Below, one piece after another: positions 12,930 through 21,882 of a stretch of DNA of 64,000 bases (positions are counted from its first letter, which is position 1; each line of letters opens with the position of its first letter). The position numbers and the translations under genes are program-made. Source of the stretch: Mesohalobacter salilacus (GTDB lineage: Bacteria; Bacteroidota; Bacteroidia; Flavobacteriales; Flavobacteriaceae); contig RRZV01000067.1 of the NCBI GenBank assembly GCA_003931895.1, forward strand, positions 1 to 64,000. The letters run 5' to 3'. The notes beneath the pieces are model-generated. The model was not told the origin of the DNA. It did not search any database and saw only the letters and a program-made list of their open reading frames with translations.

Positions 12930-13072
12930 ATGAGATGGGATGAGGCTAATTCAGTATTAGCAACACATTCGCATACAACAATAGCATGCAAAAAGGGAAA
13001 TGACTGATTTTAAATCAGAATAAGAATAGAAATTGGAAATAGAATCTTTAAAATACTTCATCGCTTAAAGGT

Positions 13073-13207
13073 TTTTATATTCTCTGAAAGCACTATCGCT
13101 CTCAGATCTGGAATTGGCACCGGTTTTCCAACACTGAAATACATCAGCACTTATAGTGGGTTGCCAGAGGGTCATTGAGCCAGTCTCTCACCTCGTTCTT
13201 TATAAAA
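13073..13207 (-). promoter_or_regulatory. SAM-I (S-box) riboswitch aptamer
   Basis: On the minus strand the conserved S-box core is present in order: AAGAACGAGG, then GAGACTGGCTCAATGA, then CTGGCAACC, and later CCGGTGCCAATTCC. Helix P1 pairs TTTTATA (13207-13201) with TATAAAA (13079-13073); P4 is an 8-bp hairpin CTGAGAGC/GCTTTCAG (with one G-U pair). S-adenosylmethionine binding to such aptamers shuts off methionine genes. The downstream operon metY-osmC-metX-hom is the expected target. Confidence 0.93.
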
Positions 13208-13234
13208 TTTGCGATTACTCACAAATTGGTGATA

Positions 13235-18833: not shown

Positions 18834-19253
18834 ATGTTTTCTGATAAAAAAAACCCAAAAGCAGATTTTTCTAAAGAACAAAACAAAATCTCTCAAGGCA
18901 CGACCCTAACTGGCGACATAAGCTCTGAAGGTAGCTTTAGAATAGAAGGAGAGCTAGACGGCAATCTTAATATTAAAGGTAAAGTCGTTATCGGCGAGAC
19001 AGGACAAATTAATGGTGAAGTTATATGTGAAAATGCTGATATTGAAGGCAAATTCAATGGAACGCTTAAAGTTAATGCTTGTTTAACCCTAAAAAGCACT
19101 TCTCAAATCTCAGGCGATGTTATTACAGACCAACTCGTAGTTGAGAACGGTGCTGTTTTTAATGCTACCTGTCAAATGAAAGGCAATGTAAAATCCCTCG
19201 AGGATGAGCGAAAAACAACAACAAAACCCCAAAAAACCAAAGCAGTCCAATAA
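18834..19253 (+). CDS. Bactofilin (polymer-forming cytoskeletal protein)
   Basis: A 139-residue protein with the bactofilin core (~20-120): a right-handed beta-helix with regularly spaced G and I/V, as in GTTLTGDISSEGSFRIEGELDGNL and GEVICENADIEGKFNG. N- and C-terminal tails are charged and disordered, also typical. Bactofilins polymerise without nucleotides and act as scaffolds for envelope machinery. It is placed between sprE (2-bp gap) and atpZ, whose start lies inside its last 50 bp, so the genes are tightly coupled. Confidence 0.93.
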   Translation: MFSDKKNPKADFSKEQNKISQGTTLTGDISSEGSFRIEGELDGNLNIKGKVVIGETGQINGEVICENADIEGKFNGTLKVNACLTLKSTSQISGDVITDQLVVENGAVFNATCQMKGNVKSLEDERKTTTKPQKTKAVQ

Positions 19254-19506: not shown

Positions 19507-19902
19507 ATGAATGAATTTTTAAATAGAGAATTTCGGTTCTTACTTTTGTTATTATCCTTTTCCATTACAGGATTTCTAATTCATTGGTATATTGAATTTC
19601 AGTTTTTTTTAGAATTAAATTTAATAATACCAATTTTCACAATTTATCTGTTCAATTTTATAACTGTTGTGATTGTTTATACTATCATAAATTACAGGTA
19701 TTATATAGGTAAAATACAAATATTACCTTTATTTTTGGGTGCAACTTTATTTAAAATGATATTATCTATAATTTTTTTGTTGCCTATTTTATTAAAACCA
19801 AATGAAAATGCAACTACAGAAACATTAAACTTCTTTATTCCTTATTTTTTCTATTTGGCATTTGAAATTATTGCAATTATGCAATTAATGAAGGGAAAAT
19901 AA
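19507..19902 (+). CDS. Small membrane protein ahead of atpB (AtpI-like position)
   Basis: A 131-residue protein with four hydrophobic helices at roughly 10-30, 38-58, 72-98 and 110-128. The sequence is strongly Ile/Leu/Phe-rich, and no named domain is certain. Position directly before atpB, size and four-helix layout match AtpI-type ATP synthase assembly proteins, so an Fo assembly role is the best guess. It is separated from atpZ by 66 bp and from the atpB promoter by a few bases. Confidence 0.75.
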   Translation: MNEFLNREFRFLLLLLSFSITGFLIHWYIEFQFFLELNLIIPIFTIYLFNFITVVIVYTIINYRYYIGKIQILPLFLGATLFKMILSIIFLLPILLKPNENATTETLNFFIPYFFYLAFEIIAIMQLMKGK

Positions 19903-19916
19903 TCCTGATTTTATTG

Positions 19917-19947
19917 TTTGAAAATTGACTTAGTATTGCTACATTTG
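19917..19947 (+). promoter_or_regulatory. Promoter of atpB (TTTG-N19-TACATTTG)
   Basis: The -33 TTTG is at 19917-19920 and the -7 TACATTTG at 19940-19947, 19 bp apart. A transcript would start near 19954, so atpBEFHAG can be expressed independently of sprE-atpZ. It also decides the atpB start (see atpB). Confidence 0.75.
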
Positions 19948-19986
19948 CACAAATTTTTAAAGAAGCCATCATTTATTAATATAGTA

Positions 19987-21078
19987 ATGAATATACTTTC
20001 TGCTAAGTCTCTTGTTTTTAATGTGTTATTATTTCTGTCATTAATGGCTTCTGCTCAAGTTGAAGAAACTTTGATAGAAGAGGAAACCGATGAAAATAAA
20101 TTTGACCCGAAGGAAATGATAATGCATCATATTAAAGATGCATATGGGTTTCATATTATAGATATAAATGACCATCCTATCTCAATACCTTTACCTGTTA
20201 TACTATGGACTGAAAATGGTTTGACAACTTTTATGTCTTCAGAATTCCATCATGATTCTGATGGAAAGGTTATTGTTGAAAAAAATGGTGAAAAGTTTGT
20301 GAACTATCACGAAAAAGCATACAGACTTAATCCAAGTGCAGAAAAATTAAAAATAGGAGATGATGGCTATCCTGTTAACGCAGAAGAGCCAATTGACATA
20401 TCGATTACTAAAAATGTATTAATGATGTGGATTTCGGTAATTGTGCTTCTTTTGATATTTATTACTACAGCGAGACAATATAAAAAATCAAAAAATAATT
20501 TACCAAGTGGAATAGCTAAATTTACAGAACCTCTCGTGTTGTTTATTAGAGATGATGTTGCTATTCCAATGATTGGAGAAAATAAATACAAGAAATATAT
20601 GCCCTATTTGTTAACCATATTCTTTTTCATATGGGTTAATAATATTTTTGGATTAATACCAATTTTTAATGCAGCAAATGTTTCAGGTAATATTGCATTT
20701 ACTATGACTTTAGCTGTTTTTACATTCATTATTACTACATTAAGTGGTAATAAAAATTACTGGAAACATATTTTTTGGATGCCAGGAGTTCCTATACCAA
20801 TGAAAATATTTTTAATGCCTATCGAAATTGTTGGGATGTTTGTAAAGCCAGTTTCTTTAATGATACGTTTGTTTGCTAATATTACCGCAGGTCATATCAT
20901 TATTCTATCATTGATATCACTTGTCTTTATTTTTGAAACAGTTGCGTTAGCCCCTGTTTCTGTTGCGTTTTCATTATTCATAACATTAATTGAAATTGTT
21001 GTAACAGCAATACAAGCATATATATTTACAATATTATCAGCGCTATATTTTGGTATGGCCACAGAAGAGAATCATTAA
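19987..21078 (+). CDS. atpB: ATP synthase Fo subunit a
   Basis: A 363-residue subunit of the membrane proton channel. The essential arginine lies in LMIRLFANITAGH, and the C-terminal helices around it are conserved. As in other Bacteroidetes, there is an N-terminal signal peptide ending in LMASAQ and a ~110-residue acidic periplasmic region before the first core helix. The frame is open from a TTG at 19918, but the promoter at 19917-19947 overlaps that TTG, and the ATG at 19987 starts exactly at the signal peptide; I therefore take 19987. It is first in atpBEFHAG. Confidence 0.93.
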   Translation: MNILSAKSLVFNVLLFLSLMASAQVEETLIEEETDENKFDPKEMIMHHIKDAYGFHIIDINDHPISIPLPVILWTENGLTTFMSSEFHHDSDGKVIVEKNGEKFVNYHEKAYRLNPSAEKLKIGDDGYPVNAEEPIDISITKNVLMMWISVIVLLLIFITTARQYKKSKNNLPSGIAKFTEPLVLFIRDDVAIPMIGENKYKKYMPYLLTIFFFIWVNNIFGLIPIFNAANVSGNIAFTMTLAVFTFIITTLSGNKNYWKHIFWMPGVPIPMKIFLMPIEIVGMFVKPVSLMIRLFANITAGHIIILSLISLVFIFETVALAPVSVAFSLFITLIEIVVTAIQAYIFTILSALYFGMATEENH

Positions 21079-21082
21079 TTAA

Positions 21083-21307
<225 letters not shown>

Positions 21308-21316
21308 TTAATTTAC

Positions 21317-21354
21317 AAAACACAGAAATAACGGTTGGTTATTTCTGTGTTTTT
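21317..21354 (+). terminator. Strong hairpin with T-run between atpE and atpF
   Basis: The arms AAAACACAGAAATAAC (21317-21332) and GTTATTTCTGTGTTTT (21338-21353) form a perfect 16-bp stem with a 5-nt loop GGTTG; the T-run covers 21350-21354. It has the form of an intrinsic terminator inside the ATP synthase operon. Partial termination or mRNA 3'-end protection would raise atpE over the genes downstream, fitting the need for many c subunits per complex. Confidence 0.85.
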
Positions 21355-21387
21355 AAAAAAAATTTAAATGATTAATATTACTTTACT

Positions 21388-21882
21388 ATGGATTTAGTTA
21401 ACCCAGGATTTGGATTAGTTTTTTGGACAGCAATTACTTTTTTATTCTTAATTGTTATTTTAAGAAAGTTTGCATGGAAACCTATTTTAGGAGCAGTTGA
21501 TTCTCGCGAAAAATCAATCCAAAAAGCTCTTGACTCTGCTGAAGAAGCCAAAAAGGAAATGCAAAACCTCAAGGCCGATAATGAAAAAATGAAGCAAGAA
21601 GCGCGTCAAGAACGCGACGCTATGCTTAAAGAAGCTCAGCAAATGAAAAAGCAAATGATAAGCGAAGCCGCTGAAGAAGCTGCTAAGAAATCTGATGATA
21701 TCATTGCAAAAGCTCAAACAGCTATAGAAAATGAAAAGAAAGCCGCAATTCATGAATTGAGACAACAAGTCGCTCAATATTCAATTGAAATTGCTGAAAA
21801 GGTTTTAAAAGAAGAACTTAAAGACAAAAAGGCCCAAAACAAACTCGTTGATAGAGAGTTAGAAAAAGTTAAGCTTAATTAA
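21388..21882 (+). CDS. atpF: ATP synthase Fo subunit b
   Basis: A 164-residue peripheral-stalk subunit. One N-terminal transmembrane helix (~8-27, GLVFWTAITFLFLIVIL) is followed by the KFAWKPI turn and a long charged alpha-helix rich in K, E, A and Q (~40-150) that forms a coiled coil with the second b and contacts delta. Length is normal. It starts ~33 bp after the atpE hairpin and ends 9 bp before atpH. Confidence 0.96.
   Translation: MDLVNPGFGLVFWTAITFLFLIVILRKFAWKPILGAVDSREKSIQKALDSAEEAKKEMQNLKADNEKMKQEARQERDAMLKEAQQMKKQMISEAAEEAAKKSDDIIAKAQTAIENEKKAAIHELRQQVAQYSIEIAEKVLKEELKDKKAQNKLVDRELEKVKLN

Follow-up and report, generated by a model that had tools for sequence, protein, structure and literature searches.

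A hairpin with a fixed five-base loop between atpE and atpF of Mesohalobacter salilacus and its relatives: a candidate 3′-end element of the atpB–atpE message

The window, the whole stretch of Mesohalobacter salilacus DNA that we analysed (64 kb; Flavobacteriaceae), carries on its + strand a series of ATP synthase genes in the order atpB, atpE, atpF, atpH, atpA and, last, a gene that we take to be atpG (Table 1). Pfam matches support AtpB, AtpE, AtpF and AtpH, and AtpA was assigned by protein matches. Upstream of atpB, a bactofilin gene and an AtpI-like gene (PF09527) share 50 bases, read in different frames (19204-19253), and between the AtpI-like gene and atpB lies orf131 (19507-19902), whose 131-residue product has no Pfam match. 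Elsewhere in the window an Rfam search identified a SAM riboswitch on the − strand (13072-13208; RF00162, 56.6 bits). A strong hairpin stands between atpE and atpF, dividing operon genes whose products are needed in unequal amounts; the genes on its two sides are presumably co-transcribed.

Table 1. Features of the atpB–atpF region and of the intergenic hairpin (window coordinates).
Feature	Position	Strand	Sequence, basis or remark
Promoter-like motif TTTG-N19-TACATTTG	19917..19947	+	just upstream of atpB
atpB (subunit a)	19987..21078	+	PF00119, E 5.6e-58
atpE (subunit c), 69 aa	21098..21307	+	PF00137, E 3e-18
Hairpin 5′ arm	21317..21332	+	AAAACACAGAAATAAC; sequence, fold, covariation
Pentaloop GGUUG (DNA GGTTG; consensus G-R-U-U-G)	21333..21337	+	conserved among relatives
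Hairpin 3′ arm	21338..21353	+	GTTATTTCTGTGTTTT; sequence, fold, covariation
Five T at stem base	21350..21354	+	only 21354 unpaired in window
A/T-rich leader preceding atpF	21355..21387	+	without promoter-like -7 motif
atpF (subunit b), first gene past hairpin	21388..21882	+	PF00430, E 1.7e-27

The hairpin is real. The original prediction of a perfect 16-bp stem with a 5-nt loop between atpE and atpF was borne out: all 16 pairs are Watson–Crick, and the RNA fold predicted for 21290-21400 has an energy of -24.7 kcal/mol, as compared with a mean of -13.4 kcal/mol for 200 shuffles, none of which reached it (z -3.93). No other perfect hairpin with at least 10 Watson–Crick pairs (loop 3-9) was found in the 64 kb window. 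The structure begins 9 nt past the atpE stop codon and is separated by 34 nt from the atpF ATG. The T-run that had also been predicted stands only in part; there are five T at the base of the stem, but four are paired within the 3′ arm, leaving a single unpaired T, past which comes an A-run (sequence following the T, AAAAAAAA). Because four of the five T sit in the stem, a simple terminator scan, which needs at least 5 T in the 8 nt past the stem, did not list the window hairpin. Rfam assigned no family to the hairpin position and, at a permissive threshold, gave weak matches only, the best with E 0.089 and 23.5 bits against a gathering threshold of 60.

The AtpE of the window served as query against 198 related genomes; 187 matched, and the atpE–atpF gap was inspected in 130 of these (the 30 best and 100 picked down the list). 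A hairpin was counted when it had a G[G/A]UUG loop, three unbroken pairs under the loop and at least eight enclosing pairs, a rule that misses some loci folding with the loop (e.g. L234, L249, L329, L332, L351 and L396). Within the window's order, 114 of the 130 loci had a GRUUG hairpin in the gap, as against none of the 130 when the 200 bases past the stop were shuffled; the absence of the stem from close relatives had been named as grounds for abandoning the prediction, and the opposite was found. When the strongest hairpin of each of these gaps was taken, its loop was GGTTG in 97 of 130 loci and GATTG in 13. The class-wide sample comprised 100 of 235 AtpE matches (the 30 best plus picks of 30 and 40), spread over families, and here 54 of 99 loci carried the hairpin (shuffled, 2). 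Among the 80 most similar named loci it was found in 48 of the 79 usable ones (shuffled, 1). One locus had been dropped from each of these last two samples for short sequence, and all three samples keep near-identical loci. Named carriers include Flavobacterium, Pedobacter, Sphingobacterium, Mucilaginibacter, Fluviicola, Taishania, Bergeyella, Polaribacter, Arenibacter and Christiangramia. As anticipated, relatives keep the hairpin in shape and not in sequence, throughout the order and in much of the class.

The GRUUG loop was absent from the gaps of Hymenobacter, Pontibacter, Reichenbachiella, Marinoscillum and Arcicella, which have hairpins with other loops instead, and the GRUUG hairpin was absent from Prevotella and one Candidatus Bacteroides, where gaps are short, or folds are weak or different. 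Genomes of ~0.3-0.6 Mb (L041, L048, L125) have no hairpin, and their atpF starts 7 to 12 nt past atpE; with gaps of 6 to 12 nt, L041, L048, L059 and L125 lost the hairpin along with the spacer. Among the strong non-GRUUG pentaloops, 14 of 24 have a purine first and G last, and pentaloops of this A/G...G kind occur, for example, in the atpE–atpF gaps of L250, L251, L256, L301, L339, L348, L375 and L386; on the strength of the 14, lineages beyond the main group may have a less strict R-N-N-N-G cap.

The anatomy of the element was assessed in a pool of 360 distinct loci, part of which was fetched with a covariance model, so that its 265 GRUUG hairpins are not a frequency. In these 265, the loop starts a median of 27 nt past the atpE stop and ends a median of 52 nt before atpF. 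The gene past the hairpin is atpF-like in 263 (241 plus 22 of the other 24), and the remaining two run off the sequence. The helix is unbroken in 131 of the 265. Some distant families have a 5′ bulge 3-6 bp below the loop; it was rejected as a universal feature in view of the unbroken helices.

Covariation supports the stem. In 49 distinct hairpins the covariation score was 1.06, as compared with 0.24 after shuffling and no more than 0.23 with the partner slid. Helices of 12 pairs without a break occur at 65 of 130 loci and give 59 distinct hairpins, from which the 49 were taken; this choice makes pairing 100% by construction. In 82 model-aligned hairpins the score was 1.04 (shuffled, 0.24; slid, at most 0.17) with 98% pairing, in a set that consists of matches among 100 loci picked mostly as carriers and whose alignment leans towards structure. 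Two-sided changes were seen in 12 of 12 pairs of the 49-hairpin set, a count matched by 19 of 500 shuffles, and in the 82-hairpin set the count was reached by 109 of 500. At pairs 4-12 of 205 distinct sites, for which the loop and two pairs out of the first three served as sole anchor, G-U combinations outnumber A-C by 146 to 43 (since species are not independent, a literal reading of the p-value is to be avoided), indicating that it is the sense RNA of the atp message that folds. The pentaloop is constant, whereas every outer pair of the stem varies. Compensatory base changes are thus present, as in structured RNAs, and a fixed loop on a variable stem is the pattern of a protein-operator hairpin. 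Judged from these alignments, the element is under selection as RNA.

A kissing or pseudoknot partner of the loop was considered. An exact complement of the loop lies within 300 nt at 165 of 265 loci, as compared with 137 and 100 for two controls, and these complements cluster 115-140 nt upstream, at the Gln-Pro codon pair of AtpE's conserved RQP motif. That pair reads CAACC in 134 of 228 GGUUG loci, 19 of 35 GAUUG loci and 38 of 88 loci with other loops. Since CAACC in AtpE does not follow the loop type, such a partner was rejected.

How often does the loop cap hairpins elsewhere? In the window's own genome (G000) the covariance model detected one copy; of the 473 candidates there, 150 were scored. 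Over three genomes (464 kb: 400 kb from two others plus the window) it found three atpE copies only, the weakest, in G025, with E 0.19. Pentaloop hairpins with 10 or more pairs number 44 in these 464 kb; three have the loop, and two of the three are atpE copies. GRUUG as the usual terminator loop of these bacteria was rejected as the main explanation, the loop being rare elsewhere. A class-wide model search under a strict filter gave matches in at least 81 of 395 genomes (82 matches). The class-wide model searches scored 18 candidates per genome, and their counts of 81/395 and 36/395 understate presence because only part of the candidates was scored; further copies are possible. When 50 of the 82 matches were inspected, 45 were at atpE; of the other five, L158, L160 and L178 have the loop, past genes other than atpE, and L173 and L180 do not. 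A model search of 30 genomes gave 38 matches in 29 of them, ten of which are not at the atpE site (nine second matches and the sole match of G276); two of the non-atpE matches were inspected, L424, which follows ftsH, and L421. GGUUG-capped hairpins also stand past aspA (L160, in G512) and ftsH (L424, in G040), genes that were named by eye, and it is possible that whatever recognises the loop acts on these as well. Outside atpE the loop turns up occasionally; among the sites inspected, atpE is the only place where it is regular.

A U-rich, G-poor tract lies ~18 to 24 nt past the first loop base class-wide. In loop-aligned sequences the T frequency peaks at 0.84 at +19, as compared with about 0.30 further downstream, and G drops to 0.01-0.02 at +21 to +24; at the opposing upstream positions A reaches 0.68 at -15, below the T of the downstream partners. 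The U-tract score is 4.35 (265 loci), against 3.20 for the stretch 25 nt further. By the same measure the mirrored upstream arm scores 4.59 (23 loci with enough sequence), and the signal is not strand-specific. A run of at least 5 T accompanies 85 of the 265 GRUUG hairpins, and 70 of the 265 have 5 T in the 8 nt past the stem; in two genomes, such runs accompany 11 of 42 hairpins that separate co-directional genes and 7 of 16 that separate convergent ones. Termination at the hairpin is possible, and probably weak.

The motif just upstream of atpB is of the TTTG-N19 type, which we take to be the consensus type of the Bacteroidota primary sigma factor. Of 148 distinct regions around the start of atpB, 33 have the full motif (spacer 16-22), as compared with 1.8 expected in shuffles. 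In the atpE–atpF gap, a scan based on this consensus alone found the -7 motif in 7 of 307 cases, against 13.1 expected, and on the + strand of the window it found no such motif starting between 20929 and 22674. A second full motif inside atpB, at 20839 (one of 13 in the whole window, both strands), could feed atpE and the downstream genes alike. The atpB motif and the motif-poor gap suggest that atpF and the genes beyond it are probably reached by read-through of the hairpin, which argues against a complete terminator. A complete terminator combined with an internal promoter was rejected on this consensus scan, the -7 motif being depleted in the gap.

The operon in the window is a mosaic. In a comparison of eight genomes, orf131, atpB and atpE were closest to another genus (G068; 61, 76 and 100% identity), whereas in the congener orf131 had no match and atpB and atpE were 48 and 65% identical. 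The bactofilin and AtpI-like genes were closest to the congener (88 and 82%), as were atpF to atpG (80-96%; AtpG over 122 residues only). The window hairpin resembles that of the donor-like locus L002 (CACAGAAGTAAC stem), unlike the congener's (L111), and L002 carries a promoter motif similar to the window's. The orf131–atpB–atpE–hairpin block (19507-21354) looks to have been acquired as a unit, as if the Fo a/c module had been replaced, promoter motif and hairpin included. The hairpin travelled with atpE in what is a single event.

We propose that the hairpin is a cis-acting element that defines the 3′ end of the atpB–atpE message, as a leaky terminator and/or a barrier to RNases; we consider this reading about evenly poised between right and wrong. 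RNA polymerase starting upstream of atpB would transcribe atpB and atpE and then meet the hairpin. Part of the transcripts would stop there, at what would be a weak intrinsic terminator, and/or longer transcripts would be trimmed back to the hairpin and shielded by it. Read-through would supply atpF, atpH, atpA and atpG, and the outcome would be more atpB–atpE RNA than downstream RNA, as would suit a complex with roughly ten c subunits. A candidate termination factor, RNA-binding protein or ribonuclease would read the fixed G-R-U-U-G cap; because the loop is fixed and yet needless for a plain terminator or RNase barrier, a recognising factor appears to be the best account of the cap. It is from sequence that we infer partial 3′-end formation, loop recognition and the link to the subunit ratio. 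A role of the hairpin in subunit stoichiometry is plausible, and not a universal one, as several lineages are without the element. The more specific proposal, that the GRUUG hairpin is the site of a Bacteroidota RNA-binding or termination factor setting the ratio of c to b and alpha, is tentative.

Leaky termination or 3′-end protection had been predicted, and that idea comes out with mixed support. The U-rich stem base, the promoter-like motif at atpB and the motif-poor gap fit it, but the fixed loop is more than it requires, long T-runs are no commoner here than at hairpins that separate co-directional genes elsewhere, and several c-ring lineages are without the hairpin. Also counting against a 3′-end element are the one unpaired T in the window, the lack of strand specificity in the U-tract measure, the second promoter-like motif inside atpB, and the presence of the loop on the aspA and ftsH hairpins. 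Prevotella-type genomes, the very small genomes and Hymenobacter are without GRUUG, yet need a c-ring.

The constancy of the loop would also suit a hairpin that is the site of a trans-acting regulator, an RNA-binding protein or small RNA, through which translation or decay of the message from atpF onward would follow the energy state, 3′-end formation being secondary. The distance to atpF is almost constant, the fixed loop sits on a free stem, and the bulge seen in some distant families recalls protein-binding hairpins, in which this geometry occurs. However, the bulge is not general, such a regulator is without a known partner, and roughly a single copy in each genome, among the candidates scored, would be odd for a global regulator; we regard this account as possible, though a minority prospect. 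The U-rich stretch and the promoter motif of atpB could instead reflect an ordinary intrinsic terminator that closes an atpB–atpE unit, with atpF to atpG served by a promoter of their own. Against this stand the scarcity of the -7 motif in the gap and the motif-free stretch of the window, together with a loop that is constant here and rare elsewhere, and we think it unlikely.

That the hairpin keeps a short and near-constant distance from both the atpE stop and the atpF start raises a further alternative, in which a hairpin ~10 nt past the atpE stop would insulate ribosomes, separating termination on atpE from initiation on atpF. The joint loss of hairpin and spacer in the four loci with gaps of 6 to 12 nt agrees with it, but insulation leaves both the fixed loop and the U-rich stretch unexplained, and we rate it as more doubtful still than the ordinary terminator. 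For a chance inverted repeat, or a functionless remnant of a mobile element, no point in favour was found; covariation and conservation over much of the class refute it, and we give it next to no credence.

The element that we propose, one defining the 3′ end of the atpB–atpE message, bears on a classic question, how one operon provides about ten c subunits per one to three of the others. In Escherichia coli the solution is largely translational. Bacteroidota mostly lack Shine–Dalgarno sites, so that an RNA-level device at the atpE/atpF boundary would be a different answer. If the more specific proposal of a loop-reading factor is true, it would amount to loop-read tuning of stoichiometry inside an essential operon, retained over much of the class. 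The combination of a fixed loop and a free stem offers a handle for finding the binding partner. As the hairpin is absent from Prevotella-type genomes and from one Candidatus Bacteroides, it could have gone unnoticed in gut model species.

Several known systems resemble the element in part. The ops element of E. coli, read by RfaH, works in leaders, as non-template DNA, to recruit an antiterminator; the likeness lies in a short C-GGT-N-G core atop a hairpin (the related locus L023 has CGGTAG), and the difference in that the atpE element is a long covarying RNA stem past a gene. With intrinsic terminators the hairpin shares a stable stem, and its U-rich, G-poor 3′ base, present in most carriers, may correspond to their U-tract, but it lies inside an operon whose genes all must be expressed, its loop is conserved, and in the window it has a single unpaired T. 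We found no description of an atpE–atpF element in the literature searched, which covered few subscription journals, so that novelty is not proven; the main text of a transcriptome study of Flavobacterium psychrophilum, as far as accessible (PMC9723704), is silent on ATP synthase.

Closest in kind are the hairpins of differential decay. According to the accessible part of a study in E. coli, in 26 of 34 gene pairs the stabilised upstream gene has its 3′ end just past a stable hairpin; malE–malF, pufBA–pufLMX and, in E. coli, tatA over tatBC are examples, and that part of the main text mentions neither atpE nor ATP synthase (Dar and Sorek, 2018; PMC5927463). As there described, these cases share with the atpE hairpin a strong hairpin past a gene needed in excess, where a 3′ end is expected, and differ in that the atpE element has a fixed five-base loop, conservation over much of a class and, unlike the E. 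coli cases, a U-rich stretch. In the plastid atp operon, as outlined in the accessible text of PMC6474325, the PPR10 and BFA2 sites, the latter between atpF and atpA, are sequence-specific sites of plant PPR proteins that halt exonucleases and determine where transcripts end around the c-subunit gene. Those too are transcript-end sites within an atp operon, but the atpE element is a hairpin, and one without a known protein. Relative to both precedents, E. coli decay hairpins and plastid atp transcript ends, what appears new is the deep conservation, the locus and the fixed loop, which neither precedent explains and which points to a recognising factor.
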